Positions 1,033 to 40,954 of a stretch of DNA of 64,000 nucleotides are shown here, piece after piece. The notes under the pieces are model-generated. The model was not told the DNA's origin. It did no database searches and saw only the letters and a list, made by a program, of their open reading frames with translations. Every line of letters starts with the position of its first letter. Position 1 is the stretch's first letter. The stretch covers positions 62,001 to 126,000 of the forward strand of contig JALHOP010000002.1 in NCBI GenBank assembly GCA_022842935.1. The letters run 5' to 3'. This DNA is from Myxococcota bacterium. Its GTDB lineage: Bacteria; Myxococcota; XYA12-FULL-58-9; JALHOP01. Position numbers and translations under genes: made by a program.

Positions 1033-1077
1033 ACGCAAGTCCTTCGCGCGGTTCGCCCGCTTGCGCAGGTCTTGCGC
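1033..1077. promoter_or_regulatory. Operator pair upstream of osmC-acs
   Basis: Two copies of the 15-bp dyad nCGCA-N5-TGCGn: 1033-1047 (ACGCAAGTCCTTCGC, one mismatch) and 1063-1077 (GCGCAGGTCTTGCGC, exact). Their centres are 30 bp apart. The near copy is centred 48 bp before the -24 GG of the promoter at 1117. Confidence 0.75.
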
Positions 1078-1116
1078 GTTTCGTCCCACCAATGCGGCAG
1101 AAGCGCCTCGTAGCGA

Positions 1117-1131
1117 TGGAACGGTCCTTGC
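1117..1131 (+). promoter_or_regulatory. Sigma-54 promoter of osmC-acs
   Basis: TGGAACGGTCCTTGC matches the -24/-12 consensus TGGCACG-N4-TTGC at all but one position with exact GG-N10-GC spacing. Expected start of transcription is near 1143, giving a short leader that contains AGGAG before the ATG at 1171. Confidence 0.75.
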
Positions 1132-1170
1132 GACGGACCCTCGCGTCAACGGCGCACGCAGGAGATCCAC

Positions 1171-1614
1171 ATGGCACACACCTATGAAATTCCTATCGAG
1201 CTGGTTGGCAAACGCCGCATCGACGCCAGAGTCCATGACCATCTCATACGCACCGACCAGCCGGTCGCGCGCGGTGGCGACAACGACGCGCCAACGCCAT
1301 TCGACCTCTTCTTGGCCAGCATCGGGACGTGTGCCGGAATCGCCGTACAAACGTTCTGTGCGATGCGCGAAATCCCGTACGAAACCATCGGTCTGATCGA
1401 ACGGGTTGCCTTGGACGACCATGGCGTCATGACAGGTGTAGACCTCGAGATCAGACTGCCAGAGGGGTTTCCGCAGCAATACGTCAACGCGCTGCACAAG
1501 GTCGTCTCGGGATGCACCGTCGCCCGCTCGATTCTGGCGCGCCCGTCTTTCACCGTCTTGACGCGCGCGAGCGACGCCCCCGTCGATGGCTCCCAGAGCG
1601 TAGCGCATGGCTGA
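1171..1614 (+). CDS. OsmC/Ohr family peroxiredoxin-like protein
   Basis: A 147-residue OsmC-fold protein. The two Cys regions expected for the thiol peroxidase pair are present: Cys54 in SIGTCAG and Cys115 in SGCTVARS. OsmC proteins reduce organic hydroperoxides, but this branch (YhfA/redox protein type) is little studied and could act on other thiols. It overlaps the start of the acetyl-CoA synthetase gene by 8 bp, so the two are co-transcribed. A sigma-54 promoter and an operator pair lie directly upstream. A second, more distant OsmC is at 32105-32554. Confidence 0.85.
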   Translation: MAHTYEIPIELVGKRRIDARVHDHLIRTDQPVARGGDNDAPTPFDLFLASIGTCAGIAVQTFCAMREIPYETIGLIERVALDDHGVMTGVDLEIRLPEGFPQQYVNALHKVVSGCTVARSILARPSFTVLTRASDAPVDGSQSVAHG

Positions 1615-3745
1615 CCTGCGCGACGGAGGCTCGTCTCTCGATGCAATCCTGGCACCGCGCTCGGTCGCTGTAGTCGGTGTTTCGCGGGAGCGCGGAAGCA
1701 TAGGCGCGGAGATCTTTCACAACTTGATCGCGTCGGGCTTTCAAGGTCCCGTCTATCCCGTAAACCCGAACGCCGACTGGGTTCAGTCGGTTAAAGCGTA
1801 CGCAAGCATAAGCGACGTACCAGGGACCGTCGACCTCGCCGTCATCACGACCCCGGCCGCCACGGTTCGCGACATCGTCGATGCGTGCGCGGCCAAAGGC
1901 GTCAAGGGTGTCGTCGTCATCAGCGCCGGCTTCGCCGAGGGTGGCGGCGATGCGCGCGCCCAGCAACATGAGCTTGCCGAGCGCTGCAGGCGCGCGGGCA
2001 TGCGCATGGTGGGACCCAACTGTCTCGGCGTCTTGAGCACGGCAGCCGACGTCCGCTTGAACGCGACCTTCGGACCCATCAACCCTCCAGCCGGGAGCGT
2101 CGCGTTCGCGACACAGTCAGGAGGCCCTGGGCTCGCTGCCTTCGACTACGCAAGTAGCCTTGGTCTTGGCATCAGCGAGTTCGTCAGTATGGGCAACAAG
2201 GCGGATGTCTCCGGCAACGACCTGCTCGAGCGGTGGCGCCGGCACTCCGCAACGCGTGTGATCTTGCTGTACCTCGAGAGCTTCGGAAACCCACGACGTT
2301 TTCTCGAGCTCGCACGCGAGGTCAGCCACGAAAAGCCCATCATCGCGGTGAAGGCAGGTCGCACTTCGACCGGCGCCCGCGCGGCGAGCTCCCACACGGC
2401 GGCGCTCGCGGGCTCGGATAAGGCGGCCGCAGCGCTGTTCGCGCAGACTGGGGTCATTCGCGTGGAGAGCATGCGCGAGCTCCTCGAGACCGCGAGCGTG
2501 CTCGCGCTGCAGCCCATTCCTGCAGGCCGTCGTACCGCCATCATCACGAACGCGGGCGGCCTCGGCATCATGGCGGCCGATGCGTGCGAAGCACACAACC
2601 TCGCTCTGCCCAAACCGGACGAGCCGACGATGGATGCGCTCCGGAGTTTTCTTCCCACTGCGGCGTCGCTGGGAAACCCCATCGACATGGTCGCGAGCGC
2701 GTCCGCCGAAACGTACGAAAAGACGTTGAGTACGGTCCTCGCGAGCGACGCCTTCGACTCGGCGATCGTGCTGCTCGTACCAACCGCGGTGACCGACCCG
2801 GTGGCGGTGGCGCAAGCGATTGTACGAGCCGCGACCGGCATGCCTAAACCAGTCGTCTGCGCGGTAGTTGGCGTCCACGGGGCGGCCGAAGGTCGAACCC
2901 ATCTTTGCGACGCTGGCTTTCCGGCGTTTGCATTTCCGGAAGAGGCCGTAACGGCCCTTGGCCACGCCACCGACTACGGCTCTTGGCGCGCAACACATGC
3001 CGAGCGTCAGAGTCCAGCCGCAGCCGTAAACCAGGATCGGGTTCGACGCATCCTCGCGGACGCGACCGCCAGAATTCGCGCGACGCCAGAGGACGCTGGG
3101 AACGACTGGCTCACCCCGCAAGAGGCGCACGCTCTTCTCGAAGCGTGCGGCATCGCGACACCTCGGAGCGCGTTCGTCGCGACCGCCGAAGCAGCCGCTA
3201 CCGCCGCGGACGAGATCGGCTACCCCGTGGTCGCCAAGGTCATCGCGACCGGGCTCATCCACAAGACGGAGGTCGGCGCCGTACGTGTCGGTCTTCGCGA
3301 TGCGGCGGCCGTGCGGGCCGCGTGCCGGGCCATGGCGGACCGGATGGACGTCAAGGTCGAAGGCTTCCAAGTGCAGGAGATGGTCGAAGGGGGCACCGAG
3401 CTGCTCGCTGGCATCTCCCGCGACCCCAGCTTTGGTGCGCTCGTCGGCTTCGGCGCGGGGGGCACCTACACGGAGCTCCTGGCTGATGCCGCGTTTCGCA
3501 TCGCTCCGCTTACACGTGACGATGCGCGTGACATCGTGAGCGGCATTCGTTCGCAGGCGCTGCTGAACGGTTTTCGCGGTCACCCCGCCGTCGACCGCGA
3601 CACGGTGATGCGCGTCTTGCTGGCCTTGTCGGCGCTGGCGGACGACAATCAAAACGTTCTGGAGGTCGACCTCAATCCACTGGTGGCCACCGCGCGTAAA
3701 GGCATCATCGCCCTCGATGCGCGCGTCCGCCTACGGCGCCCTTGA
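1607..3745 (+). CDS. Acetate-CoA ligase (ADP-forming), fused alpha-beta
   Basis: This 712-residue protein has the layout of ADP-forming acyl-CoA synthetases. It has an N-terminal Rossmann CoA-binding domain (about 10-110, with VAVVGVSRERGSIG), succinyl-CoA-synthetase-like domains (about 130-460), and a C-terminal ATP-grasp domain (about 490-705, with GYPVVAKV and the EVDLNPL motif at the end). The family converts acetyl-CoA (or other acyl-CoA) + ADP + Pi to the acid + CoA + ATP, giving substrate-level ATP when respiration is limited; related Pat-type proteins also carry an acetyltransferase domain, absent here. It starts inside the osmC gene (8-bp overlap). The acid it handles is not certain. 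Confidence 0.85.
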   Translation: MADLRDGGSSLDAILAPRSVAVVGVSRERGSIGAEIFHNLIASGFQGPVYPVNPNADWVQSVKAYASISDVPGTVDLAVITTPAATVRDIVDACAAKGVKGVVVISAGFAEGGGDARAQQHELAERCRRAGMRMVGPNCLGVLSTAADVRLNATFGPINPPAGSVAFATQSGGPGLAAFDYASSLGLGISEFVSMGNKADVSGNDLLERWRRHSATRVILLYLESFGNPRRFLELAREVSHEKPIIAVKAGRTSTGARAASSHTAALAGSDKAAAALFAQTGVIRVESMRELLETASVLALQPIPAGRRTAIITNAGGLGIMAADACEAHNLALPKPDEPTMDALRSFLPTAASLGNPIDMVASASAETYEKTLSTVLASDAFDSAIVLLVPTAVTDPVAVAQAIVRAATGMPKPVVCAVVGVHGAAEGRTHLCDAGFPAFAFPEEAVTALGHATDYGSWRATHAERQSPAAAVNQDRVRRILADATARIRATPEDAGNDWLTPQEAHALLEACGIATPRSAFVATAEAAATAADEIGYPVVAKVIATGLIHKTEVGAVRVGLRDAAAVRAACRAMADRMDVKVEGFQVQEMVEGGTELLAGISRDPSFGALVGFGAGGTYTELLADAAFRIAPLTRDDARDIVSGIRSQALLNGFRGHPAVDRDTVMRVLLALSALADDNQNVLEVDLNPLVATARKGIIALDARVRLRRP

Positions 3746-3759: not shown

Positions 3760-3805
3760 GCGCAAGGATTGCGGCTTTACCCACCTGGGTGCGCACGCGC
3801 TTCGC
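3760..3805. promoter_or_regulatory. Operator pair upstream of the diguanylate cyclase gene
   Basis: Exact copy GCGCAAGGATTGCGG at 3760-3774 and a one-mismatch copy GCGCACGCGCTTCGC at 3791-3805, centres 31 bp apart. The second is centred 52 bp before the -24 GG of the promoter at 3849. Confidence 0.7.
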
Positions 3806-3877: not shown

Positions 3878-4669
3878 ATGAGGGGTCGACGCGAAATCAT
3901 CCAGCACGGCTTCATCGGCTTCGTGCTGGCGCTTGGCGCGCCTCTCGGATGGCTTCTTTGGCGGACGCATGGTGCCGACGTTGGTCGTGAGCTCGCAGCG
4001 AACGGGCCGCTCTACGCCTACCTGCTCGTAGGTACGGCCATCGCGTTCGTCGCCTTCGGTGTCTGGGTAGGTATCCGCATCGGACGCCTGCGCCAGAGCG
4101 TTACCAGTCTCAAGTCCGCGATCGTGATCGATCCGCTGACCAAGCTGAAGAACCGCCGGTACTTCACCGAGCGCCTAGAGCAAGAGCTCGCACGGGCGCG
4201 CCGCGAGGCAAGCACTGTGTCACTCGTGGTTGGCGACCTCGACCACTTCAAGGCCGTCAACGACGTGCATGGCCACGCGACTGGTGATGTCGTTCTGATG
4301 GCGGTCGCCGAGGTCATGAGCGCATGCTGCCGGACCGCTGACAGCGCCTGCCGCATCGGTGGCGAGGAGTTCGCGATCATCCTCCCCAACACGGAAGCGC
4401 TCGAAGGGGCGCGGGTGGCCGAGCGTCTACGCAACGCTATCGCGAACTGCCAGATCGAAGGTACGCGGGGCGCCATTCACCCGAAGCTCTCTCTAGGTCT
4501 TGCGGTGAGCAGCGACTCGCTCGCTAGTGCCGAGGCTCTTTTCGCCGCGGCAGACCGCGCCTTGTATCGTGCCAAGCAGGCGGGTCGAAACCGCGTCGTC
4601 CTGGACGAAGCCATCGAGCCCTCGAGCGTGCTTGGTTCGTGGGGAACGCGGCGCAACGTCGACGCCTAA
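3878..4669 (+). CDS. Membrane-anchored diguanylate cyclase (GGDEF)
   Basis: A 263-residue protein with two N-terminal transmembrane segments (about 9-27 and 45-65), a short coiled linker and a C-terminal GGDEF domain (about 85-245). The active-site loop reads GGEEF (in RIGGEEFAIILP), which is compatible with c-di-GMP synthesis, and DPLTKLKNRRYF is the usual N-terminal signature. No EAL domain is attached. There is no Shine-Dalgarno sequence before the ATG. Operators and a sigma-54 promoter directly upstream place it in the island's regulon, which would couple oxygen status to c-di-GMP. Confidence 0.88.
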   Translation: MRGRREIIQHGFIGFVLALGAPLGWLLWRTHGADVGRELAANGPLYAYLLVGTAIAFVAFGVWVGIRIGRLRQSVTSLKSAIVIDPLTKLKNRRYFTERLEQELARARREASTVSLVVGDLDHFKAVNDVHGHATGDVVLMAVAEVMSACCRTADSACRIGGEEFAIILPNTEALEGARVAERLRNAIANCQIEGTRGAIHPKLSLGLAVSSDSLASAEALFAAADRALYRAKQAGRNRVVLDEAIEPSSVLGSWGTRRNVDA

Positions 4670-4680: not shown

Positions 4681-4725
4681 TTGCAGAATCTGCGTGTCGG
4701 GATAGGCGGGGCGCAGATTTTGCGC
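4681..4725. promoter_or_regulatory. Operator pair upstream of the USP-CBS-cytochrome operon
   Basis: TTGCAGAATCTGCGT at 4681-4695 (one mismatch) and GCGCAGATTTTGCGC at 4711-4725 (exact), centres exactly 30 bp apart; the near copy is 49 bp before the -24 GG at 4767. Confidence 0.75.
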
Positions 4726-4816: not shown

Positions 4817-6181
4817 ATGGCCATCCTCGCTGCAACAGACTTCAGCCCCGAGGGGAACGAAGCGACACGCGTGGCCGCCGACCTCGCGCGCGCCGTCCAC
4901 GAGCCTCTCATCGTCATCCACATCCTCGAGCCGCGTATGGCGTTCCCTGCCGATCGCCCACAGCGCGTCGGCGACCTGCCTGTCGTTCGCGAAGCGGCGG
5001 CTCACAAGATGCTGAGCGCCGTCAAACAGGAGCTCGAGAGCACGAGCCTGATCGTTACGACCGAGCTGGGGCACGGGGCCGTCGAGGACGCGCTATTCGA
5101 CGCGGCATCGCGCCATGCTCCCACGGTGGCAGTCGTCGGCGGATTCGGCGACGGGAAAGCCAGCTATAACGGTGTCGCCGACGGGCTCGCCGCTGTGCTC
5201 CCCTGCCCCGTGCTCGTGGTGCGGCCATCCAATCAAGGGCTGCGGACGGGCCTTACAAACAAGCGACGGCTGCGCGTGTTCGTGGCTGTCGACCGCAGCC
5301 TTGCGAGCGACGCCCCGCTGTCGTTCGTGAAGTGGCTCCGCGGACGCGTTCCGTGCGACGTGGTAGTCGACTATCTCTACTGGCCGCCTGTCGAGCACGA
5401 GCGACTGGGCATTCCGAGTGTCGGCGATGACCCTTTCGCTGCGCACCCCGACGTCGTGCGCGCGCTCGAGAACGAGTTGCGCGACCGTGTCGGGATGCTG
5501 CCTGGCACCGGCGACCTCAGTGTGCGGGCGCATCCGAACATAGGAGCTGTGGACGTTCTTGCAAAGCGCGCCGCCCTCGCCTTCGACTCGGACTTGATCA
5601 TCGTTGGGTCGCACCGACGTCGTGGATGGAGTCGCCTCGTTCATGGCTCTGTGTCGCTGAACATCATGCGCAGCAGCCCGGTCCCTGTCTTGGCGGTGGG
5701 ACACGACGTATTGAAGCAACGCGATACCCACGCGGCCACTCACCGCGTGTTGGTGGCGACAGACCTCAACGAAGTGAGTCGTCGCGTCGTCGCGCACGCC
5801 ATCGACCTACTCGGCCAACGCCAAGGAAGTCTGCGGCTCGTCTTCGTGGACGATCGCGTGATGGATGGACCCTTGCATCGCCAGCCAGGTGGCGAGCGCC
5901 GCTTGAGCGCCATGGAGCTCGGCGAGCTGAACGAGCGCATGCTCGGCTTCTTGCCGGAGGAGCTCGATACCGACCGCATCCAAGTCACCACTAAAGTCCT
6001 CGAAGGAGGACCCGTCGCGGATGCGCTCATTCAAGAAGCGGCTCGCTGGAACGCCGATGCGATTTGTCTGAGCTCGCGCGGCGTCGGGCCCGTCGAGCGG
6101 GTGCTGACCGGGTCCGTAGCCACAGAAGTCATCCAACGCGCCGATTGCCCCGTGCTGGTCGTGCGCACACGAAGAGAGTGA
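4817..6181 (+). CDS. Tandem universal stress protein
   Basis: 454 residues with USP-like domains at the N-terminus (AILAATDFSPEGNEATR, to about residue 135) and the C-terminus (HRVLVATDLNEVSRR from about 310), and a degenerate middle part (about 150-300, GSHRRRGWSRLVHGS). The last domain ends in a clear nucleotide loop, LSSRGVGPVERVLTGSVATEV, then CPVLVVR. It is a close relative of the tandem USPs at 27590-28909 and 39464-40825. First gene of a tight operon: a 5-bp gap to the CBS gene, which then overlaps a heme protein. Such proteins usually bind ATP and modulate partners; no enzyme activity is indicated. Confidence 0.9.
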   Translation: MAILAATDFSPEGNEATRVAADLARAVHEPLIVIHILEPRMAFPADRPQRVGDLPVVREAAAHKMLSAVKQELESTSLIVTTELGHGAVEDALFDAASRHAPTVAVVGGFGDGKASYNGVADGLAAVLPCPVLVVRPSNQGLRTGLTNKRRLRVFVAVDRSLASDAPLSFVKWLRGRVPCDVVVDYLYWPPVEHERLGIPSVGDDPFAAHPDVVRALENELRDRVGMLPGTGDLSVRAHPNIGAVDVLAKRAALAFDSDLIIVGSHRRRGWSRLVHGSVSLNIMRSSPVPVLAVGHDVLKQRDTHAATHRVLVATDLNEVSRRVVAHAIDLLGQRQGSLRLVFVDDRVMDGPLHRQPGGERRLSAMELGELNERMLGFLPEELDTDRIQVTTKVLEGGPVADALIQEAARWNADAICLSSRGVGPVERVLTGSVATEVIQRADCPVLVVRTRRE

Positions 6182-6186
6182 AAGTC

Positions 6187-6672
6187 ATGCGAGTCACCGA
6201 GTTGATGAGCAGTAACGTCGCGACGTGCGCGCCAGCGGACAACCTCGCCGCAGTCGCCGCTCAGATGTGGGATCGAGACGTGGGTGCCATCGTGGTGGTC
6301 GACGAAGAGAATCGACCATTGGGGATGGTCACCGATCGCGACCTCTGCATGGCTGCCTACACACGCGGCTGCGCGCTGTCCGCGGCGAACGTCGGCAGCT
6401 TGATGGGCCGGCCCGTTATTACATGCAAGCTAGGTGACACGGCGGCGAGCGCCGCCGAGGGCATGGCTCTTCACCAAGTACGGCGACTACCAGTAATCGA
6501 CGATGACGGACACCTCGCGGGCATCGTAACGTTGGGCGACATCGCGCGCGGCCACCAGTGCACAGAGCTTGCTGGCGCGGCCCTCGCGGTCATCGCCACC
6601 CCGCGCCAGCTCGCCGGCCCGGCACAAGCGAGCCCCGGGACGCGGGCTCGCAAGCGTGAGCGTGCGGCATGA
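6187..6672 (+). CDS. CBS-domain pair protein
   Basis: 161 residues, essentially one Bateman module: CBS1 from MRVTELMSSNVATC to about 65 (VVVDEENRPLGMVTDRDL), CBS2 from about 78 to 125 (GHLAGIVTLGDIA), then an unstructured, basic tail. Such modules bind adenine nucleotides or SAM and act as energy sensors; here no catalytic domain is attached. It lies between a tandem USP gene (5-bp gap) and a c-type heme protein gene (4-bp overlap). Three more CBS-pair proteins occur in this island (9537, 26933, 29850). Confidence 0.88.
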   Translation: MRVTELMSSNVATCAPADNLAAVAAQMWDRDVGAIVVVDEENRPLGMVTDRDLCMAAYTRGCALSAANVGSLMGRPVITCKLGDTAASAAEGMALHQVRRLPVIDDDGHLAGIVTLGDIARGHQCTELAGAALAVIATPRQLAGPAQASPGTRARKRERAA

Positions 6673-7136
6673 AGAGGCTCGCTATCGCACGACTGGTCGC
6701 TTTGGGCGTCCTCGCGATGGGGTGTGTACGTCATTCCCCCCAAGCTCCGGCCCCGTTGGTGCTCGAAGCGCCCCCAGCAGCGACTCTCGACCAAACGCGC
6801 GCGCTGATGTGGCGGCTCGCGCATCAGGTCCGCCTTCTTGGCCTGGTGACCGACCAACCGGATACCGCTGCGACCGATGCGCGAGCGCAACTCCAAGAGA
6901 TGGAGGAGATCGCTCTCGCAATCGCCGCGCTGCCGGAACGGCGGGCCCACCCGCTCCTCGATAGCAACATCGGGGGGCTGCTCGCCGACATTCGCCGCGC
7001 GCGTGCGGAGGTCGCGGGCGCGAGTCCCGAGTGGGGCACGACACACTCCATCACGACTGCCTGCGTGCGATGCCACGAGCTGCGCACCTGCCCGTTCGAC
7101 TCGTACCAGCAGTGTGTCGATCTGCCGATTTATTGA
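6669..7136 (+). CDS. Small monoheme c-type cytochrome lipoprotein
   Basis: 155 residues. Lipoprotein signal with Cys19 (ALGVLAMGC), a mostly helical middle, and one heme-c motif near the C-terminus, CVRCH at 132-136. It shares a scaffold with the protein at 39036-39467: MW early, a helix with ME/LR-x-L-D/E, an HP-x-L step, then S-I/V-T-x-A-C-x-x-CH. In both cases the gene follows a tandem USP gene. Extra Cys residues after the heme site (TCPF, QQCV) are unusual. It is probably exposed in the periplasm. The family is not one I can name. The stop codon overlaps the convergent ATPase gene by 7 bp. Confidence 0.75.
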
Positions 7137-9496
7137 TGGCGGGTCACCGTGAGGTCGAGGATGACCGCAACGACGGCGGCGACCACCACGCAGACCAGCG
7201 CATCAGTCAGTGCGAGCGGTTGCAAGGCGAAGAGCTCGCGCGCTGGGGCGAACGCGTAGAGCGCGCCTTGCCCGAACAATGAGATGACGACGATGCCAAC
7301 GAGCGGGAGCGCCGAGCGCAAGGGTCTCGTTCCACGGCCGAGTCCAATGCGGGCCAAAGCGCGAAAGAGCTCGCAAGCGACGACGAGCCCGAACGTGAGG
7401 CTACGGGCGTCCGCGAGACCACGAGCGTCGAGCGCCCAGTAGAAAAACGCCGCGCTGGCGGCGACCTGCAAGATGGCGCTCGCACCAACGCTCGACCACT
7501 GAGCGCGGCCAAGCAGGGGCTCACTCACGGGTCGCGGAGCCTTGGTCATCACGTCGGCGGAGGCGGGCAGCGTGATGAGCCCGAGTGCAGGGAGTCCGTC
7601 GGTCACCAAGTTGATCCAAAGGAGTTGCATAGGCACGAGCGGCAGCGGCCAGCCCGCAAGCGACGCGACCAGCATGAAGCCAAGCTCAGCCACGTTGCCA
7701 GACAACAGGTACACGAGCGAACGCCGGATTGCGTCGAAGATGTTGCGCCCTTCGCGGACGGCGTGGACGATGCTCGCGAAGTCGTCGTTGACGAGAACGA
7801 TGTCAGCGGCTTCGCGGGCGACTGCGGTTCCACCCTTGCCCATGGCGATACCAATGTGAGCCTCGCGCAGCGCGGGAGCATCGTTGACGCCATCCCCCGT
7901 CATCGCGACGATGGCACCGCTTGCCTTGCGGGCGCGGACGATCTCGAGCTTCTGGCGCGGCGTAATGCGAGCGTGGACCCGTTCCGCCGGCTCGCCATTC
8001 GCGTCGACGATGCCGAGCTCGGTTGCTATGGCACGCGCGGTCGCCGCGTGGTCGCCCGTGATCATGACAGTGACTATTCCCGCCTTGTATGCGTCTGCCA
8101 CAGCGGACATCGCATCGTTTCGAGGAGGGTCGGCGATGCCAATGAGGCCCAAGAACGTAAGGCCGCGTTCGTCGTTTCCCTGTCCGATGGCGACAGCGAG
8201 CACGCGCAGACCACGCGCTCCGAGTGTCGCGTTGGCGTCGAGTGCGCCGTCGGTGCCCGTGGCACACAAGGGCAAGACACTCTCGACCGCACCTTTCACG
8301 TATAACCTGTCGTCGGCGCGGAGGACGGCCATACGTCGCCGAACGTCGTCGAAGGCATGGGTTTCGACGCGCGGGTTGTCACGCTCGATGTCGGCACGGC
8401 GAATCCCGCGCTGAGCCGCTGCGGCAACGATGGCGACTTCCGTAGGATCGCCAAACCCTGTGGCCCCGTCCTCTGAAAGCTCGGCGTCGCAACACGCCGC
8501 GGCTGCCGCGATGACGGCGCGGTGGTCGGCCCCCCAAACGTCGCGAAGAGTCATGACGCCGGTGGTGAGCGTGCCGGTCTTGTCGGTGCAAATGACGGTC
8601 GTCGAGCCGAGAGTCTCGACGGCGTCGAGCTTGCGCACGAGAACGTCACGCTTGGCCATCCGCCGAACGCCGAGCGCAAGCGCAACGGTCACGACGGCGG
8701 GGAGGCCTTCGGGCACCGCGGCCACCGCCAAAGACACGGCGGCCAGGAAGATCTCGGTCGCGGGCACACCGCGTAAGACCGAGACCGTGGCGATGACAGC
8801 GACAACGGCGCAGGACACGACGATGAGGGTCCGCGTGAGCTGATTCACGCGACGTCGGAGCGGCGTCTCTTCCTCTTCGGCCTCCGTGACCATGCGGGCT
8901 ATGCCGCCGAGCTCTGTCTTCATACCCGTTCGGGCCACTTCGACGAGCGCGCTTCCGGTAGAGACGGCGCTACCCATGAACACCATCCGCTCGCGCGCCT
9001 CGTCGGCGTCGACACGTTTGGTGACCGGGACACTCTCTCCCGTCAACACGGCCTCGTTGACGCTCAGTCCATGCGACTCGACCACCACGCCATCGGCGGC
9101 GATCACGTCACCTGCCTCGACCACGAGCAAATCGCCGTCCACGACGCTCCGCCCGTCGATGGTCATCTGAACTCCGTCGCGGCGCACCCGAGCCTTGGGC
9201 GCGGTCATCGCCCGCAGGGCCTCGATGGCGCGCTCGGCGCGGTACTCTTGAACGAAACCGATGACGGCATTCAGGGCGACGATCGCGGCGATAGCCGAGG
9301 CGTCGACAAGCTCTCCTACCGCGGCCGACACCGCCGCCGCGGCGACCAAGAACCAAACGACCACCGACCCGAACTGCGACATGAACACGCGCATCGCGGA
9401 GACAGGTGGCTTGCCTGCAACCACGTTGGGACCGAGCTCGCGGAGGAGCTGTTCCGCTTGGGCGGACGTAAGGCCAGTCCGTGCTTTATCCGACAT
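7130..9496 (-). CDS. P2-type cation-transporting ATPase (Ca2+/PacL-like)
   Basis: 788 residues with the full P-type ATPase plan: an actuator domain with the TGES loop ([12 protein letters not shown], about 155), a fourth membrane helix with PEGLPA (typical of P2A Ca2+-type pumps), phosphorylation site DKTGTLTTG (about 310), the [11 protein letters not shown] hinge (about 555), and six C-terminal membrane segments. Cation specificity is not settled by the motif; Ca2+, Mn2+ or Na+ are possible. Start at 9496 has GAGGAG upstream. It is the last gene of the phosphoketolase-CBS-ATPase operon. The pairing with USP and CBS genes recalls CtpF in the mycobacterial DosR regulon. Confidence 0.88.
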
Positions 9497-9536
9497 TCCA
9501 CTCCTCTACCGTCAACAGGCGGAAGCCTTGCGCCGT

Positions 9537-9941: not shown

Positions 9942-9990
9942 GTGCTTTCTCCGATTTCCGTCGATGAACTGCATGCGATGCTCCCTTTTT

Positions 9991-23534: not shown

Positions 23535-23537
23535 CGC

Positions 23538-30987: not shown

Positions 30988-30988
30988 C

Positions 30989-32554: not shown

Positions 32555-32594
32555 CGTCGTTCTCCCGGTTTGAGCCTACGTCAAAGAATGCCCG

Positions 32595-33131: not shown

Positions 33132-33178
33132 GTCAACTCCTTGAGACTGCGACTGTCGCGACGCCGTCACTGAAAGTC

Positions 33179-33198: not shown

Positions 33199-33270
33199 CC
33201 CCAGGTCTTGCGCGTGGCTTTGGGATCGCAGGCTTTTCGCTGCGTCCATACCGCTACGCAGGTCTTGCGT
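33199..33270. promoter_or_regulatory. Triple operator between divergent heme-protein genes
   Basis: CCCCAGGTCTTGCGC (33199-33213, one mismatch), TCGCAGGCTTTTCGC (33226-33240, one mismatch) and ACGCAGGTCTTGCGT (33256-33270, exact). The last two centres are 30 bp apart. Divergent heme-protein genes lie on either side. Confidence 0.75.
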
Positions 33271-33910: not shown

Positions 33911-34444
33911 TCATTCGGTCAGGGCAAGCGACTGCTCGACGCGGGCGATGATGGCATCTGCCTCGCTAGCGACGCTTGCGCCCGTGGTTTCGCAGATGAC
34001 CTCCGGGCGCAGCGGCGGCTCGTACGCTGCACCGATACCAGGCAACTGACTCACCGTCCCGTCACGCGCCGCGGCGTATAAACCCTTGGGGTCGCGAGCG
34101 ATGAGGATCGCGTCGGGCGCGGTAACGAACACCTCGATGAAGCGGCCTGCGCGGCTTCGTACACTGTCGCGATAGCGGGCAAAAGGTGCTGTCGCACTCA
34201 CGAGAACAACGTCATGATTTTTGGCGGCGTCGAGCGCGAGCTCGCCGAGCTGGGCATAGAAGTGGTCCCGATCACGCGCGCCAAACCCCAGACTTGGCAT
34301 GAGGGTCTGACGAACGGCGTCACTGTCGAGCCACTCGACCGTGCGGCCACGCTGACGCAGATCAGCAGCAGCCACCGCGGCGAGCGTCGACTTGCCCGCC
34401 GCTGGTCGACCAGTGAGCCAAACGATGACCCCGGCGGGCTTCAT
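33911..34444 (-). CDS. Adenylylsulfate kinase (CysC)-like P-loop kinase
   Basis: 177 residues with the APS kinase plan: P-loop TGRPAAGKST (about 11-20), DSDAVRQTL where classical enzymes have DGDNVR, LGFGARDRD, APFARYRDSVR, EVFVTAPDAILIARDPKGLY and the final GIGAAYEPP. The enzyme phosphorylates adenylylsulfate to PAPS. The change at the DGDN motif and the absence of any sulfate-assimilation neighbours make a different substrate possible. It overlaps the preceding phosphotransferase gene by 4 bp, as last gene of a long operon. Confidence 0.8.
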   Translation of the reverse strand: MKPAGVIVWLTGRPAAGKSTLAAVAAADLRQRGRTVEWLDSDAVRQTLMPSLGFGARDRDHFYAQLGELALDAAKNHDVVLVSATAPFARYRDSVRSRAGRFIEVFVTAPDAILIARDPKGLYAAARDGTVSQLPGIGAAYEPPLRPEVICETTGASVASEADAIIARVEQSLALTE

Positions 34445-35712
34445 GCGATGAGCGCGTCGACGCGGTCTGGATCGAAGGTCGCGCCAGCAAGCAGGCGCTC
34501 AGAGAAGCGTAAGAGCTGGTGGCGGACAGCATCAGGCGTATCGGGGTACCAAACCGGACTGGCGAGAACGAGCGTACGCCAAGTGAAGAACAGCGGCACG
34601 ACGCTCAGCATCTCGCGGTCGGCCGTCGCTGCGATAACCCGTGACCACAACGCGGCCCACAGCTCACGCAAGGCGCCGATAAAACTCCCTCGGTGACGCA
34701 AAGCGAACGCGAGGTAGTTGATGGCAAGGCACGTCACATCGTCGGCGATGTCGCCAATGCCACCACGTGAGCGGTCCAGGAGATGGAGCTGGTCTCCGGG
34801 ACCAAAGAGGATGTTGTAGGGGTGTAGGTCGCCATGCGTTTGCGTCGCGCGGTGCTCGAACTTGCGCAGTCGCTCGCGTGCCTCACAGGCGCCCACGACG
34901 ATCGCAGCCAAGCGTGTCGGGGTCGCCACTGGGTCATCGTCTGCGTAGGCGTCGCGCAGTCCGAAGATCCCTTCGCCACTTCCGACGACGTCGCGCACGG
35001 CCCTCCGATACTGAGCCGGCTCGCCGCGCCGAGACGCCATCGTTGCCAGGTACGCAACGATAGTGTTCAAGCGGACGTCGTCCCGCGCCGAGACACGGTC
35101 GTGACCCGCAATGGCGTGCAAGTCGTGGGCGTAAAGCTCACCGTGCGCAAACTCGGTCACGAGGAACGGCTCACCGCGCCCACCGGATATCAGTTCGCCC
35201 CCTTCGACGAAGCCTACGTCGAGAGCGTGGACGTGTGCCGGTGAATCGCAGATATCGTAGGCGCCCAAGACCTGTGCTACGCGGTCAGCGCGCCTGTCGT
35301 GGCCGAACGCATCAGGCGCCATCGTATGCAGGACCAGCATCCGCACGTCACCATTGACGCTATAGCGAACGCGTACGGGCTCACCATAGCCGAAGCTCTT
35401 GTGTTCGGCGCTCTCGTCGCCGGTCAATGGACCGGCATCGATGAATCGAGCATCCGGCGCGATCGCGCGGCGCAAGTACGACGCGATGGCGCTGACGTCG
35501 AGTGCTACTCCCTGGCGACGACCCACGGCGCGTGTCTCCGGTAGATGGACGGGTCCCTGCACTGTACGTGCCGACCAGAATGCACGCGAAGCGCGTAAGC
35601 GCCTCAGCGCCTCGTCGACGCGAAAACGGGAGCTCGCATGGGGTGTGGGGCGGACCGCGACATGAGTGCCCAGCCTCGGTGCGCAGAATCGGCGTCTCTG
35701 CGACCACCGCAC
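34441..35712 (-). CDS. APH-type phosphotransferase
   Basis: Up to 423 residues. The kinase core is recognised by THGDLHPYNILF (catalytic loop, about 292) and LLDRSRGGIGDIADD (metal-binding Asp region, DRS in place of the common DFE/DPA). The N-terminal 80 residues are doubtful: the open frame starts with GTG at 35712, 15 bp after the RNase gene, but in-frame GTG codons further on are possible. Substrate unknown; small-molecule kinases of this fold are often misnamed aminoglycoside phosphotransferases. A gene pair of this kinase with a small P-loop kinase recalls Rv2004c of the DosR regulon, where the two are fused. Confidence 0.75.
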   Translation of the reverse strand: MRWSQRRRFCAPRLGTHVAVRPTPHASSRFRVDEALRRLRASRAFWSARTVQGPVHLPETRAVGRRQGVALDVSAIASYLRRAIAPDARFIDAGPLTGDESAEHKSFGYGEPVRVRYSVNGDVRMLVLHTMAPDAFGHDRRADRVAQVLGAYDICDSPAHVHALDVGFVEGGELISGGRGEPFLVTEFAHGELYAHDLHAIAGHDRVSARDDVRLNTIVAYLATMASRRGEPAQYRRAVRDVVGSGEGIFGLRDAYADDDPVATPTRLAAIVVGACEARERLRKFEHRATQTHGDLHPYNILFGPGDQLHLLDRSRGGIGDIADDVTCLAINYLAFALRHRGSFIGALRELWAALWSRVIAATADREMLSVVPLFFTWRTLVLASPVWYPDTPDAVRHQLLRFSERLLAGATFDPDRVDALIA

Positions 35713-35727
35713 GCAAAGTGTTCGCCC

Positions 35728-37146
35728 TTACGCGACGTGCAAGCGGTCACCCGGGGCAGGAATATTGACCGGGCCAAAGCCCCTCTGCACGAGAAGGTCG
35801 CGAAGAGCCCGCTGTGCTCGGAGCTCGCCATGCACGAGCGCGACAGGACCAAGTCGACCGCTTTCACGCACAGACTCCGCGAAGGCAATGAGCTCGCTCT
35901 GGTCAGCATGAGCGCTGAAGCCGTTCATCACGACGACCTCTGCTTTGCGTTCGTGCTCGAGTCCAAAGATGCGTACCTGGTCACGGCCCTCGACGAGCCG
36001 ACGGCCGAGTGTGTGCTGAGCCTGAAACCCGACGATGACCACCACGTTTTTTCGGTCAGAGATCGTCGCGCGCAGATGATGCAAGACGCGACCGGCCTCA
36101 CACATACCACTCGCGGAGATGACGACTGCTGGCGCAGATGAGGCGCATATAGCGCCGGACTCCGCGATATCAGTCACGTAGCGCAGGCCAGGGACATCGA
36201 AAGGGCCGTCGCTGCTCTCGAGAAGGGCCGCTGTCTCCTCGTCGTAACAGTCTGGGTGAAGCTTGAAAACGTCCGTCACTTTTACGGTCAAGGGGGAATC
36301 AACGAAGATCGGAACCGCGGGGAGGCGTCGCTGCGCGTGCAAGCGGTGCAGGACGTGTACGAGCTCTTGCGCGCGCTCCAAGGCGAACGCTGGGATGATG
36401 ACTTTGCCCCCGCGAGCAACGGTCCTCTGAATGACGGCTTCGAGCTCGTCCTCCATCGCGGCCAGAGGCGGGTGAAGTCGGTCACCGTATGTACTCTCCA
36501 GAATCAGCGCATCTGCACCCTCGGGAACGTCTGGGTCCCTCAAGATAGGCATACTGTTGCGTCCGAGATCCCCAGAGAAGACGAGTCGACGTTTCGCGAA
36601 GCGCGTGCTGACGTCCACCGCGACGATGGCGCTACCAAGCACGTGGCCCGCGTCATGTAGAGTGAATTCGACCTGCGGCCCTGCGGGATGGCGTCGGCCG
36701 TACGGCACACCTACCATCGCTTTGACGGCGGCTATGGCGTCGTGGCGGGTGTAGAGTGGTTCCACCTCTTCGACCTCGGGATGCTGCCGTGCGATGCGCG
36801 CGATCGTGCGTGCGTCGGCTTCCTGAATCAACGCCGCGTCTTCGAGCATGACCGCGCAGAGGTCGCGGGTCGCGGGTGTCGTGTAAATGGGTCCGCGGAA
36901 CCCGTGTTTGACGAGCAACGGAAGTGCTCCCGAGTGATCGATATGCGCATGCGACAAGACAACGGCGTCGATGCCCAAGGGGTCGAACGGCAAATTGCGA
37001 TTGCGTTGGAACGCGTCGCGACGGCGTCCCTGGAACAGTCCGCAATCGAGGAGTAGGTTCATTCGGGACGTACGCACGAGGTGCATCGAACCGGTCACCG
37101 TCTGCGCCGCGCCTAGGAATTCGACTTCCACCTTCACCTCGAGCAT
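35728..37146 (-). CDS. Metallo-beta-lactamase/beta-CASP ribonuclease
   Basis: 472 residues: metallo-beta-lactamase domain with HAHIDHSGALP (66-71 being HxHxDH), LESTYGDRLH (motif 4 region), a beta-CASP insertion, and a C-terminal RMMBL part with GFSAHADQSEL. This is the CPSF73/archaeal-type RNase family found in many bacteria; it probably cleaves or trims RNA. The same type of gene is often seen near USP and respiration genes. Starts 59 bp after the CoA-transferase stop. Confidence 0.9.
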   Translation of the reverse strand: MLEVKVEVEFLGAAQTVTGSMHLVRTSRMNLLLDCGLFQGRRRDAFQRNRNLPFDPLGIDAVVLSHAHIDHSGALPLLVKHGFRGPIYTTPATRDLCAVMLEDAALIQEADARTIARIARQHPEVEEVEPLYTRHDAIAAVKAMVGVPYGRRHPAGPQVEFTLHDAGHVLGSAIVAVDVSTRFAKRRLVFSGDLGRNSMPILRDPDVPEGADALILESTYGDRLHPPLAAMEDELEAVIQRTVARGGKVIIPAFALERAQELVHVLHRLHAQRRLPAVPIFVDSPLTVKVTDVFKLHPDCYDEETAALLESSDGPFDVPGLRYVTDIAESGAICASSAPAVVISASGMCEAGRVLHHLRATISDRKNVVVIVGFQAQHTLGRRLVEGRDQVRIFGLEHERKAEVVVMNGFSAHADQSELIAFAESVRESGRLGPVALVHGELRAQRALRDLLVQRGFGPVNIPAPGDRLHVA

Positions 37147-37205
37147 CCGTTATGCTCTGAAACGATGCGCCTTCTATCTATCCTGATGGGCGCTGAGCCG
37201 CGACC

Positions 37206-38987
37206 TCAAGTATCGGTCGGGGCTCGGCTGTTGAGAGAGTCGCGGCTCGCGGCGAGTCGCGGGGAGACGTGCCGAGACGTACTGGGGAACGAACGCCAGT
37301 CGAGCTCGAACCCTCGACCAGTGATGACGCCCATGGGAGCACGCGGCACGTCGCCAGAGCGCGGGACGATGATGTGCATAGGACTCGCCGCGATGATGTC
37401 ACGTCGGATGTCGACGCCCGGCAAGGCGGCCTCGAGGCGCATGCCCGCCTCTGTGAGGCGGAGAACACCCAGGTTCGTGACGTAGAGTACCGTCTGCCCG
37501 CGTGCTAAGGCCTGGCGACCAGAGAACGTGACTTCGCGCACCGACTGGACGAGCTTCGGTTGTCCGTGTTCGAGGATGCGCGGAACGCCACGCTGAAGCT
37601 CGACACGTCCCCCTTCCATGGCGCTACCGACGAAGATGATGGTGCGCGCATGGCGCGAGATGTCGATGAAACCGCCGGGACCAACGTAGTTGACCGCGCC
37701 GTCGCCGCGCTTCGAAACGTTGACGTTGCCATCGCTGTCGGCTTCCAACATGCCCAACAGCGCGACGTCGAGACGCTTTTCGAAGACGCCGAACATCTCA
37801 GTCGAGCTGATGACCTTGTCGGGCGCTATCGCGGAGCCAAAGAAGATCCCAGGGGCTGGCAGACCTCCGTAGACACCGAACTCGGTGGCGAAGGTGAGAC
37901 GGTCAGCCAAGCCGCCATCGACGAGGACACGCGCTACCTCTTCTGGATGACCGACGCCGACGTTGATGAGGGCCGGTGGCTCGACGAAGCTCGCGAATGT
38001 CCAGGCGCCGAAACGAGCGAGCGCCTCATCGGTCGCGCTACGACGTGGGGTGATGCCGAGCAGTCGATTCAAGAAGCGAAGCTCGCCAGCGACCTGGGTC
38101 GCATCGACACGGGCACCGGGCGTAAGCGCCTCGAGGCGGCGCGACTGTCGAAAGCTCGCTGCCTGCTCTGCGAAAGGATTCAAGACGACGGCATCGACCT
38201 CTTCGGCGGGTATGAACACGGCACTCGCGTCTTCTTCGATGACCTCCGCTACGGAGACGATGACCCGTCCACCGCGCTTTCTGACGGCGCGCACCGCGTC
38301 ACGCGTCTCGGTGACCATACAAGCGTTCGTCGCGTAGATGTTACCGGCGGCGTCGGCTGATGGCAGGGAGACGAGCGCGACATCTGGCGCCGGCATGCGA
38401 TATCGCAACTTATCCGCTTCGGCGGTCACAAGCGATACCGAATCTGCGCCGCTCACGACCGACCCGCGGCCAACACGCGGGTCGAGAAACGTGCCGATGC
38501 CCACGTCGGTCAACACTGAGCCTGAGCCATGCGCGTACGCTTCGAGTAGGGCCGCCTCGACGCCCTGTGGGAGCACGTGCAACTCGATGGCGCCAGCGTC
38601 GGCGAGTCGCAGTACAGCCTTGTGTGTCTCGACGTGCCCACCAATCTGGCAGCCCAGTAGTCCGGGAAGCGCGAGTTCATCGATGGTTCCCGGTACACGC
38701 CCCCGCCCGCCCTGAGCACCGACGCTGATGACCGTCAACTCGCGCGGGTGTGCGGTGCGCTCGAAGCGCTCGCGAATCGCCCAATACATGATGGAGTTGC
38801 GGTGGCAACTCACGATCCCCGGGATGAAGACGACATCTCCATCACGAAGGAGCGCGGCCGCCTGTCGCGCGCTCACGAATTTCTTCGAGACTCCAACTGG
38901 CGGCCGAAGGTCGAGATCGTGCCGCTTCCAAGTCGACACCCAGCGCGCGGCGTGCGTGACCAGCCGTGCTTTGCTCGAGATCTTCAT
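37206..38987 (-). CDS. Family I CoA-transferase (acetyl/propionyl type)
   Basis: 593 residues, with both halves of a family I CoA-transferase in one chain. The catalytic Glu is likely Glu369 in FATEFGVYGGLPAPG, and GDGAVNYVGPGGFIDIS is the oxyanion-side loop. Length is greater than usual (about 520) because of an N-terminal extension of some 35 residues and a C-terminal tail. It would move CoA between short acids such as acetate, propionate or lactate. Together with the ADP-forming synthetase it could recycle acyl-CoA in fermentation. A GGAGGAGG sequence lies 12 bp before the ATG. Confidence 0.85.
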   Translation of the reverse strand: MKISSKARLVTHAARWVSTWKRHDLDLRPPVGVSKKFVSARQAAALLRDGDVVFIPGIVSCHRNSIMYWAIRERFERTAHPRELTVISVGAQGGRGRVPGTIDELALPGLLGCQIGGHVETHKAVLRLADAGAIELHVLPQGVEAALLEAYAHGSGSVLTDVGIGTFLDPRVGRGSVVSGADSVSLVTAEADKLRYRMPAPDVALVSLPSADAAGNIYATNACMVTETRDAVRAVRKRGGRVIVSVAEVIEEDASAVFIPAEEVDAVVLNPFAEQAASFRQSRRLEALTPGARVDATQVAGELRFLNRLLGITPRRSATDEALARFGAWTFASFVEPPALINVGVGHPEEVARVLVDGGLADRLTFATEFGVYGGLPAPGIFFGSAIAPDKVISSTEMFGVFEKRLDVALLGMLEADSDGNVNVSKRGDGAVNYVGPGGFIDISRHARTIIFVGSAMEGGRVELQRGVPRILEHGQPKLVQSVREVTFSGRQALARGQTVLYVTNLGVLRLTEAGMRLEAALPGVDIRRDIIAASPMHIIVPRSGDVPRAPMGVITGRGFELDWRSFPSTSRHVSPRLAASRDSLNSRAPTDT

Positions 38988-39035
38988 GTCGTGCGACCAC
39001 CTCCTCCTTCGCGTGAACGCCGGGTTCGTTGAGCC

Positions 39036-39467
39036 TCAACGCGCCGTGGCGTTGTGACAGTAGAGGCAGGCCCCCGTGACACTTCGCGCGAGACCGAGGT
39101 CAGGCTCCGGCCCCTCGACCTGGGCTAGGGCCAGATGGACGTCTCGCCGGAAACGCTCGGCGCGCTCTCCAAGCATTGGATGGTTCGTCGACGCGGCGAT
39201 GGGCAAGCGACCCGCGGCGGCGTCGAGCTCGCGGAGCGCGGCAGCGACGGCCATGAGGTCGATGTCGCGGCCAGGCTCGGGGTTCATGCTGCGATCGAGC
39301 GCGGCCACCCCAGACGCAAAACTCCACATCACGGTGTTGATCTCGCGTCTCTCGACATACACGAAGTCCGGCGGATAGGTCATGCGACGAAACTCGGGCG
39401 CGCCGCAGCCTGTAGACGCCATAACGGACAACAGAGCAAAACATGCGTTGCGCATGACGAGCCTCAC
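39036..39467 (-). CDS. Small monoheme c-type cytochrome lipoprotein
   Basis: 143 residues: lipoprotein signal with Cys21 (SVMASTGC), helical middle, and CLYCH at 134-138 close to the C-terminus. Clear paralog of the protein at 6669-7136 by shared landmarks (VMW, a run of conserved Leu/Asp, HPML, SVTGACLYCH). The start overlaps the stop of the tandem USP gene by 4 bp, as its paralog also follows a tandem USP. Probably a periplasmic electron or gas-binding heme protein; no better name is justified. Confidence 0.77.
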   Translation of the reverse strand: MRLVMRNACFALLSVMASTGCGAPEFRRMTYPPDFVYVERREINTVMWSFASGVAALDRSMNPEPGRDIDLMAVAAALRELDAAAGRLPIAASTNHPMLGERAERFRRDVHLALAQVEGPEPDLGLARSVTGACLYCHNATAR

Positions 39468-40825
39468 GCCGCCACGTCACGAACGACGAGCACCGGGCAC
39501 TGCGCGGCTTGCGAGACCTCGGTGGCAACGGAACCAGAGAAGGCACGCTCGACCGGGCTCCTTCCACGCGAAGCCAGGCAGATCGCGTCGGCGTTGCCAC
39601 GCGCAGCCGCCTGCAAGATAGCCTCGGCAACGGGTCCACCGTCCACCACGGCAACGCGGGTCGTCACCTCTGTCGGGTCGACGTGTTCAGGCACGAGGCG
39701 CTCGAGCTTGGCCATGAGTGTCTGCTTTTGCGCTGGAGTCAATCGACTCGCTTCGCCCGGCATTAGGGTGCTCATGATGTCCGTGGGCCCGCACGCGACG
39801 TACAGGATCTCGACAGTACCCGCGCCTTCCGAGAGTAGGTCGTAAGCGTACGGCAGCGCCCGATTGCCGGCATCACTCAAGTCGGTTGCGACAAGCACCT
39901 TGTGAATCTTCCGGCGGGTCGGCTTGGGTTGACTCTCCGGGCCGACGCAAACGACTGGTACGTCGCTGTGACGGATGATGTCGCGCGACACCGACCCGTG
40001 AAGGAAGCGTGCGACGCCGCGGCGACGATGCGTTCCTACGACGATGAGATCTGCTGCGTCGACGCGCGCCGTGCAGAGCGCCTCGACCGAGACCGACCCG
40101 AAGTGCGGCTCGCATCTTACGGAGAGCTCGCCCTCACCACCGAGTCCGACGAAACGCTGGCGAAGCTCGCGTTCGAGCGCGGTGGTCACCCGGCCATCGG
40201 GAACAAAAGGCTCTGTGCCCAGCGGGAGCCCGAGACGACGATGCTCGGCCTCCACGACATAGAAGTGATGGAGAAAGACATCGCAGGGAATGCGCTCACG
40301 CAACGCCTTCACCCAAGCGACTGGCGCATCACTCGCGTGGGTGCGGTCCATGGCCACGGCGACACGCAAACGACGCTTGCCAGCGAGAGCGAAGCGCAGC
40401 TTGTCGGTCACCGCGCGAACCACCAACACCGGGCAGGGCATCGACTCGGCGAGCTTCTCATCGAGGGCTCGCCCCGCGGCGCGGGCTTCACTGTCACCGC
40501 CGCCGACGACCAAGAGATTGACGTGGCGGGCACGGACGACCGAAGCGAGCCCGTCTTCGACAAACCCGTTCACGACATCGGTGTCGACGCTAACGCCGTC
40601 CTTGGCAACCTTGCCGCGCAGCGCGTCGAGCAGGTTCTTGGCTGCATGCAGACGATCGACCTCGGCATTCACACCGCCACTACCGACATCGAGCGGGAAG
40701 TTCGTGGAGGACTCGAGTACGTGGACGAGGGTGAGGCGAGCATGAAGAGCGCGGGCCAGCTCGGCGGCCACCTGGCAGGCCTCTAACGCTTCAGGCGAGA
40801 AGTCCGTCGCTGCGAGGATGTTCAT
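39464..40825 (-). CDS. Tandem universal stress protein
   Basis: 453 residues with an N-terminal USP domain (NILAATDFSPEALEAC to about 135, loop GGGDSEARAAG degenerate), a middle region with GTHRRRGVARFLHGSVS and a C-terminal domain (HKVLVATDLSDAGNRA to CPVLVVRD) carrying the loop ASRGRSPVERAFSGSVATEV. Strongly similar to the protein at 4817-6181. The ATG at 40825 has AGGAG upstream and lies 15 nt after the predicted transcription start. Leads a six-gene operon that ends at 33911. Confidence 0.9.
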   Translation of the reverse strand: MNILAATDFSPEALEACQVAAELARALHARLTLVHVLESSTNFPLDVGSGGVNAEVDRLHAAKNLLDALRGKVAKDGVSVDTDVVNGFVEDGLASVVRARHVNLLVVGGGDSEARAAGRALDEKLAESMPCPVLVVRAVTDKLRFALAGKRRLRVAVAMDRTHASDAPVAWVKALRERIPCDVFLHHFYVVEAEHRRLGLPLGTEPFVPDGRVTTALERELRQRFVGLGGEGELSVRCEPHFGSVSVEALCTARVDAADLIVVGTHRRRGVARFLHGSVSRDIIRHSDVPVVCVGPESQPKPTRRKIHKVLVATDLSDAGNRALPYAYDLLSEGAGTVEILYVACGPTDIMSTLMPGEASRLTPAQKQTLMAKLERLVPEHVDPTEVTTRVAVVDGGPVAEAILQAAARGNADAICLASRGRSPVERAFSGSVATEVSQAAQCPVLVVRDVAA

Positions 40826-40849
40826 GGGACACGCTCCTGCTGCTCCCTT

Positions 40850-40867
40850 GAGCATCATTCGCGCCAA
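40850..40867 (-). promoter_or_regulatory. Sigma-54 promoter of the six-gene USP operon
   Basis: Minus strand GTTGGCGCGAATGATGCT: TTGGC, GG-N10-GC and TGCT. Transcription would begin near 40840. Confidence 0.75.
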
Positions 40868-40909
40868 CCGGGAGGGGCGCGCGGAGCACGTGGACGGCAC
40901 GCATCCACG

Positions 40910-40954
40910 ACGCAAGAGTTGCGGCGGGTCAGCGGAGACGCGCATTTATTGCGC
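40910..40954. promoter_or_regulatory. Operator pair upstream of the six-gene USP operon
   Basis: Two exact copies: ACGCAAGAGTTGCGG (40910-40924) and GCGCATTTATTGCGC (40940-40954), centres 30 bp apart; the near one is 52 bp from the -24 GG. This is the last operator found towards the right of the window. Confidence 0.85.

Follow-up and report, generated by a model that had tools for sequence, protein, structure and literature searches.

Introduction

The closest described counterpart of the system reported here is the NmpRSTU relay of Myxococcus xanthus (PMC11841059; further papers on it are PMC6211767 and PMC12753109). According to PMC11841059, oxygen-bound NmpU holds NmpS off, and in hypoxia NmpS phosphorylates NmpR, which recognizes the consensus GCGCA-N5-TGCGC, as documented by gel shift (electrophoretic mobility shift assay, EMSA) and lacZ reporters; these sites occur in pairs mostly 14-15 bp apart together with a sigma-54 site. 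The regulon described there comprises 7 promoters and 23 genes, among which the mxan_4236 promoter, rising 6.5-fold in hypoxia in an NmpR-dependent manner, is the sole one with known hypoxic induction. A second relative is the kinase AfGcHK of Anaeromyxobacter sp. Fw109-5 (PMC8697598), whose targets are described as unknown in PMC11841059. Here, we analyzed a 64-kb window (C2:62001-126000) of a 6.28-Mb genome in 46 contigs, whose host was placed in Myxococcota by the relatives found in our searches (named kinase loci include Myxococcus, Archangium, and Anaeromyxobacter). The window contains a 40-kb block that very probably represents an NmpRSTU-type relay plus about 31 genes in 11 units carrying its box and a sigma-54-type promoter; since these promoters carry the relay's known box, low oxygen is predicted to switch the block on together. 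What the sequences themselves show is the set of four relay genes, the presence and pairing of the boxes, the helical intervals at which the boxes stand from the promoters, and the fact that boxes and NmpU occur together across the phylum.

Like M. xanthus NmpRSTU (PMC6211767 and PMC11841059), the block has the four proteins, the box, the paired register, sigma-54-type promoters, and the target kinds CBS, USP, copper P-ATPase with cbb3, and relay genes. However, the relay genes form two units there and one operon here, the targets here are gathered in one 40-kb block, and NmpR here belongs to another clade. Additional predicted targets are phosphoketolase, acyl-CoA synthetase (ADP-forming), OsmC, and GGDEF proteins, which together with the gathering of most of the detectable regulon in one block are new in this study, as well as cytochrome c'-like and beta-CASP proteins. 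With AfGcHK, the kinase shares the protoglobin-HisKA-HATPase architecture and the same haem and phosphorylation residues (PMC8697598); a difference is that few genomes in the family of the AfGcHK relatives (f17, 7 of 24) carry strict paired boxes. A relay known biochemically from Anaeromyxobacter and genetically from M. xanthus is thereby connected to a promoter code that appears readable in many Myxococcota, namely boxes in pairs spaced by about 30 bp, at distances from a sigma-54-type element that follow the helical repeat. Testable target lists follow for those 80 of 114 genomes with NmpU that have strict paired boxes; the Anaeromyxobacter side mostly lacks strict paired boxes, so its code may differ. 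The predicted targets suggest an output beyond oxygen use, including fermentative ATP gain, cyclic di-GMP, and dormancy-type stress proteins.

The mycobacterial DosR dormancy regulon resembles the block in its haem sensor kinases, its response to hypoxia, its many USPs, and its clustered targets. DosR-type systems are defined by a LuxR-family regulator and GAF-haem kinases and are not known to use sigma-54; the block is not a member, since its regulator is a sigma-54 activator and its sensor kinase a protoglobin protein. A comparison of USPs with the DosR regulon was already made in PMC11841059.

An NmpRSTU-type relay in the middle of the block

The four genes form an operon in the order nmpR-nmpU-nmpT-nmpS. 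Pfam searches assigned a receiver, a sigma-54 AAA domain, and a Fis helix-turn-helix to the NtrC-type NmpR, a protoglobin domain with HisKA and HATPase to NmpU, two Response_reg stretches in 234 aa (receivers only) to NmpT, and an N-terminal receiver with HisKA and HATPase to NmpS. Identities to the homologues at an M. xanthus locus (L021) are 54% for NmpR, 62% for NmpU, 58% for NmpT, and 58% for NmpS. Residues 5-161 of the kinase match the globin domain of PDB 5ohe, which we take to be AfGcHK, with an E value of 6e-62. Tyr45, His99, and His183 of the kinase are kept in all 20 aligned relatives; in AfGcHK, the first two belong to the O2 site and haem and the third is the phosphorylation site (PMC8697598). 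The NmpR recognition helix is nearly identical to its M. xanthus counterpart, and the box found in the island is identical to the published M. xanthus consensus. Judged by domains, identities, and box, the operon is an NmpRSTU-type relay and the dyad its NmpR box. The genome contains one copy of rpoN, and tblastn with nmpR found nmpR as the sole sigma-54 activator in the window.

Thus, the original prediction correctly placed a single sigma-54 activator mid-block beside a globin kinase of the AfGcHK kind. Its proposal that one relay and sigma-54 control the region is partly supported, in that the globin-kinase relay lies mid-block with its box and promoters around it. Its remark that targets of AfGcHK-type systems are not established is outdated by the M. 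xanthus regulon (PMC11841059), though still true for AfGcHK itself. It gave no polarity; by the published M. xanthus work, the relay is held inactive in the presence of oxygen and NmpR becomes active in hypoxia (PMC11841059).

By homology, oxygen-bound NmpU would phosphorylate the NmpS receiver and NmpT, a likely sink, and so hold NmpS off; when oxygen drops, NmpS would phosphorylate NmpR, which would then occupy the boxes, frequently in pairs spaced by about 30 bp, and activate sigma-54 RNA polymerase. This would bring about high-affinity respiration through cbb3, ATP gain linked to acetate through phosphoketolase and ADP-forming acyl-CoA synthetase, production of stress and nucleotide-sensor proteins (USP, CBS), and expression of the relay itself. 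That the relay instead senses another signal (e.g., NO, CO, or redox state) or has the opposite polarity is unlikely. Haem globin sensors do bind several gases, AfGcHK being active as Fe(III), Fe(II)-O2, and Fe(II)-CO (PMC8697598), and NmpR and NmpU differ in their tree affinities (see below), so that the wiring could differ; however, the O2-site residues Tyr45 and His99 are kept, the predicted targets include a cbb3 oxidase and fermentative enzymes, and the receiver signatures of NmpT-REC1, NmpS, and NmpR agree, by inspection, with the published M. xanthus wiring.

NmpR boxes and promoters in the window

We searched for the dyad CGCA-N5-TGCG with the reversed motif as control, for sigma-54-type GG-N10-GC elements, and for composites consisting of a strict box with such a promoter downstream. 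The window contains 19 dyads (shuffle mean 5.4; none of 100 shuffles reached 19), 18 of which lie in 326-40960, where 2.4 are expected from the genome-wide density (binomial p 6e-11). Although intergenic DNA makes up 9% of that region, 14 of these 18 are intergenic (p 4e-12); the genic ones are at 14440, 20617, 31716, and 40282. No dyad was found in the 40 kb left of the island, and the 23 kb past 41 kb on the right contain a single genic one (57638). A dyad followed by a sigma-54-type element with conserved GG and GC was found at 11 units, with 36-84 bp between the end of the dyad and the -24 element. The element 990- has the highest score of the window (13), and 33352+ also matched but stands before the same gene as 33330+, as an alternative to it.

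The shared dyad-promoter grammar that the original prediction had described over the 40-kb block is therefore confirmed (14 of 18 dyads intergenic; 11 units with both elements). Its extension to almost every unit holds except for the single-USP and the Tll0287-like/second OsmC units, which have a dyad only; the order of dyad and promoter was right, while the measured distances exceed the proposed 40-70 bp at both ends; and its left boundary at 1033 excluded the divergent USP gene 326-928, which dyad 1064 also serves via 990-.

Box specificity in related loci and genomes

At 31 loci with NmpU kin (517 kb), 77 dyads were detected (37 expected; reversed control 39), compared with 40 at 48 loci with unrelated kinases (777 kb; 49 expected, reversed control 33). 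In 32 NmpU-kin loci, dyad density was 0.645 per kb in intergenic and 0.080 in genic DNA, the corresponding values for the reversed motif being 0.061 and 0.076. The N5 spacer occurred 114 times in related loci, some of them motif-chosen, versus 16-45 times for twelve other spacers. The full set yielded 39 composites (12 in the window, 17 in 32 loci chosen without the motif, and 10, a source of bias, in loci picked since the scan across genomes had shown composites there). The control sequence (0.80 Mb) contained 1, and eleven permuted palindromes yielded 0-7. Dyads no more than 80 bp apart formed 29 pairs (motif-chosen loci included), 16 of them at 29-31 bp, the published register; the control gave one pair.

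We then surveyed 193 Myxococcota genomes, in which NmpU is present in 114 and absent in 79. Paired boxes accompany NmpU over these genomes, an association new in this study: strict paired boxes occur in 80 of 114 genomes with NmpU and 11 of 79 without it (p 3e-15), a p value to be read with the facts that genomes within one family are not independent, which overstates the independent evidence, that genomes with NmpU are partly larger, and that the reversed control of the paired box is itself commoner among them (29/114 vs 10/79, p 0.04). Paired-box rows numbered 274 for the motif and 59 for the control in genomes with NmpU, and 25 and 16 in those without. The association was seen within family f13 (62/77 vs 5/18), outside it (18/37 vs 6/61), and in family f23 (6/6 vs 0/5).

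These data bear on the possibility that the boxes serve another regulator with the same site while NmpR controls its own operon only. With NmpR included, 25 NtrC-type matches in the source genome reach E <= 1e-60, so other activators exist, and 11 of the 79 genomes without NmpU have paired boxes nonetheless. On the other hand, paired boxes track NmpU over the phylum, without exception in f23; the box equals the M. xanthus NmpR site documented by EMSA; and the closest paralogue of NmpR in this genome has a different recognition helix. We therefore regard this alternative as improbable, and control of the block by its own NmpR as the better reading.

The composite exceeds its reversed control in the source genome (17 vs 6) and in some f23 genomes (e.g., 17 vs 6 in G148; 11 vs 2 in G144). 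As a phylum-wide marker, box plus promoter is inadequate, being below control in many other genomes; the paired box did better. At the M. xanthus locus L021, used as positive control, the strict composite search gave nothing; the GG-N10-GC of the nmpU promoter there, 33 bp after a strict dyad, escapes the promoter pattern. Paired boxes occur in a draft M. xanthus genome at 6 places on 6 different contigs; the four places examined comprise CBS, USP, and hemN promoters, all of kinds known from the published regulon, and a D-lactate-dehydrogenase-like/USP pair. In M. xanthus C21 (L155), paired boxes and a sigma-54-type element (gap 33) precede this D-lactate-dehydrogenase-like gene, which is followed by the USP-like gene, with a nicotinate-phosphoribosyltransferase-like gene divergent; the names hemN, lactate dehydrogenase, and nicotinate-phosphoribosyltransferase were read by eye from the sequence. 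This pair is not mentioned, and the word "lactate" is absent, in PMC11841059. In family f17, which has an Anaeromyxobacter-like locus (L114), one genome (G139) has four NmpU-like matches, one of them with an internal stop.

Helical phasing of box and promoter

In the 39 composites, box-promoter distances cluster near 31, 42, 53, 63, 73, and 84 bp. The phasing (R = 0.54) is maximal at 10.5 bp among the periods listed, with a Rayleigh p of 1e-5, or 4e-4 after correction for the period scan. In a second set of 27 promoters, from loci selected mainly by paired boxes, R was 0.44 (p 0.005) with a phase offset of about 1.7 bp, which lowers the statistic for a fixed phase (u = 1.74). Box-promoter distances thus follow the DNA helical repeat, a new observation; PMC11841059 contains none of the words helical, helix, and phasing. 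The spacing suggests that NmpR and the polymerase have to be oriented toward one another across a short loop, and it predicts that shifting a box by half a helical turn should weaken activation.

Weighing the evidence and extent of the regulon

Several observations weigh against the proposed regulon. NmpR binding, sigma-54 dependence, and hypoxic induction in the source organism are steps that we infer. No convincing sigma-54 element was found from dyad 31900 toward the single-USP gene or on the minus side of dyad 33257 (Tll0287-like and second OsmC genes). At the cbb3 promoter, the nearest box (gap 36) is out of phase, while those at 53 and 84 are in phase. NmpU is present in 23 of 24 f17 genomes and strict paired boxes in 7, no enrichment was seen in Anaeromyxobacter terrae, and the composite is not above the reversed control in most surveyed genomes (e.g., 9 vs 31 in G016). 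The published M. xanthus targets hemN-hemerythrin and pilR are absent among the scanned island genes, the rest of the genome not having been sought by family. Finally, the whole genome has 364 dyads in 6.28 Mb versus 408 for the reversed control, so that the dyad alone is out as a genome-wide marker.

The specific signal is hence only the dyad with a promoter, or the paired dyad. Paired boxes were found at 8 distinct places in the source genome, 5 of them within the island (reversed control 0; p 6e-10); no likely targets were recognised at the 3 places outside. Moreover, 17 of 39 composite rows of the source genome fall in the island, which represents 0.65% of the genome (p 3e-27). The genome-wide dyad count and the 22 composite rows outside the island, near the 17 control rows genome-wide, would suit dyads and GG-N10-GC matches arising by chance in a GC-rich genome. 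This explanation is refuted for the set as a whole by local density, intergenic placement, N5 spacer preference, the yield of composites relative to permuted palindromes, the 29-31 bp register of the pairs, the association of paired boxes with NmpU, and the recurrence of phasing in the second set, and its probability is negligible, although single sites may still be chance. As the outside rows hardly exceed the control, the island accounts for most of the regulon that can be detected.

A first genome scan gave 17 composite rows, 8 in the island and 9 elsewhere; inspection of open reading frames (ORFs) and GC3 (GC at third codon positions) placed 7 of the 9 inside long ORFs, with one ambiguous (L012) and one intergenic (L016). 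At the latter, box and promoter lie in intergenic DNA, separated by an in-phase gap of 43, before a zinc-dependent alcohol dehydrogenase gene (L138 3441-4604 on G000:C9), a candidate target outside the island. One island row (L004) was not counted as a promoter, the promoter match being half of a dyad. A second scan gave 13 outside rows, of which 11 were inspected and 9 lie inside ORFs; L129 and L135 do not. Dyad-dense stretches also occur in other genomes: 13 dyads in 32 kb (G096:C102; control 1), 10 in 20 kb (G047:C16; 0), 8 in 20 kb (G051:C35; 0), and 7 in 40 kb (G114:C64; 1); being chosen by the motif, mainly by paired boxes, they show that clustering exists elsewhere, not its frequency. 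Relatives of island genes (CBS, USP, cco, phosphoketolase, GGDEF, P-ATPase, beta-CASP, and APS kinase) were found near nmp genes in several loci.

Origin of the relay

NmpU is absent from all seven genomes of the same order, which fits transfer or loss. Base composition gave no sign of recent transfer, the GC content of all 4-kb bins across the window being 62-66%. In the NmpR tree, the window protein groups with L028, L039, L040, and L043 (96/92) and is separated (98/99) from 19 others, M. xanthus among them; in the NmpU tree, the window protein groups with 19 rows including M. xanthus and L028, without L039, L040, and L043 (100/99), L039 and L043 being long branches. L028 has the same combination of affinities as the window. 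These differing affinities of NmpR and NmpU, also new here, fit a mosaic relay that was acquired or recombined. Tentatively, with somewhat less than even confidence, we propose that across much of Myxococcota the NmpR box with a helix-phased sigma-54 promoter acts as a portable address for hypoxia survival, most of the detectable regulon (sensor relay, cbb3, acetate-forming ATP pathways, USP and CBS modules) being gathered here in one self-contained 40-kb block with a mosaic relay (NmpR from the Sandaracinus side, NmpU from the Myxococcus/Anaeromyxobacter side) that could work or move as a unit.

Gene content of the block

The features of the block are listed in Table 1; gene starts are our calls from codon scores and alignments, and the start of the six-gene operon (40825) was set from sequence.

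Table 1. Genes, NmpR boxes, and promoters of the 40-kb block (window positions; gap, bp between box and promoter)
Feature	Position	Strand	Remarks
Sigma-54-type elements downstream of dyad	990-, 1117+, 3849+, 4766+, 12475-, 12648+, 20890+, 27434-, 27562+, 33330+, 40866-		
USP gene	326..928	-	Pfam Usp; element 990-976 (minus), 73 bp from dyad 1064
NmpR box between divergent USP gene and osmC	1064..1076		Promoters 1117+ (gap 40), 990- (gap 73)
osmC-like and ADP-forming acyl-CoA synthetase genes	1171..3745	+	Pfam
NmpR box	3761..3773		Promoter 3849+ (gap 75)
GGDEF diguanylate cyclase gene	3878..4669	+	Pfam
Paired NmpR boxes (core site 4683, strict 4712)	4683..4724		Promoter 4766+ (gap 41)
Double USP, CBS, 126-aa gene without family	4817..7136	+	Pfam
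Phosphoketolase-family, CBS, Ca-type P-ATPase genes	7130..12429	-	Pfam; promoter 12475- (gap 75 from dyad 12551)
Three NmpR boxes (12551, 12582, 12599)	12551..12611		Common to two divergent operons; promoters 12475-, 12648+
cbb3 operon: ccoN-ccoO fusion, ccoP, ccoG, FixH-like, DsbD-like, copper-type P-ATPase	12717..20651	+	Pfam; NCBIfam PRK14485 above cut-off
Paired NmpR boxes (strict 20793, core site 20822)	20793..20834		Promoter 20890+ (gap 84 from 20793)
NmpR box between nmpR promoter and likely ATG 20949	20921..20933		Start from codon score and alignment to M. xanthus NmpR
Relay operon	20949..25330	+	nmpR 20949-22340, nmpU 22380-23534, nmpT 23538-24242, nmpS 24239-25330; Pfam
Double-CBS gene	26933..27367	-	Pfam; promoter 27434- (gaps 41, 71)
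Paired NmpR boxes, 30 bp apart, between divergent operons	27476..27518		
USP gene, gene without family, CBS gene	27590..30458	+	Pfam; promoter 27562+ (gaps 43, 73)
Two USP-type genes	30461..31858	-	Pfam; dyad 31900 upstream
Second OsmC-like gene and Tll0287-like gene with CxxCH	32105..33134	-	Pfam; dyad 33257 upstream
NmpR box	33257..33269		Promoter 33330+ (gap 60)
Cytochrome c'-like gene with CxxCH	33378..33899	+	Pfam just above cut-off, 26.8 vs 26.5 bits
Six-gene operon: double USP, gene without family, CoA-transferase, beta-CASP, APH-like, APS-kinase	33911..40825	-	Pfam; promoter 40866- (gaps 44, 74)
Paired NmpR boxes, 30 bp apart	40911..40953		Right edge of island

The box at 20921, in the nmpR leader, could possibly limit self-activation. 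For the ADP-forming acyl-CoA synthetase, the NCBIfam acetate--CoA ligase alpha match is below its cut-off (507 vs 567 bits), and the NCBIfam matches of the genes in 7130..12429 are likewise under their cut-offs. Among the latter, the phosphoketolase-family protein (9991-12429) is divergent, with Pfam domains above cut-off and a best NCBIfam phosphoketolase match of 115 bits versus a cut-off of 777, and its activity is uncertain. A vitamin K epoxide reductase-like gene (26383-26820; under the Pfam cut-off, 24.4 vs 27.5 bits) lies downstream of the double-CBS gene and may be part of that unit. The best NCBIfam match of the beta-CASP protein (35728-37146) is the type VII CRISPR Cas14 nuclease model (391 bits vs a cut-off of 800), followed by archaeal aCPSF1, and relatives with 45% identity lie near nmp genes in two Corallococcus loci (L034 and L049).

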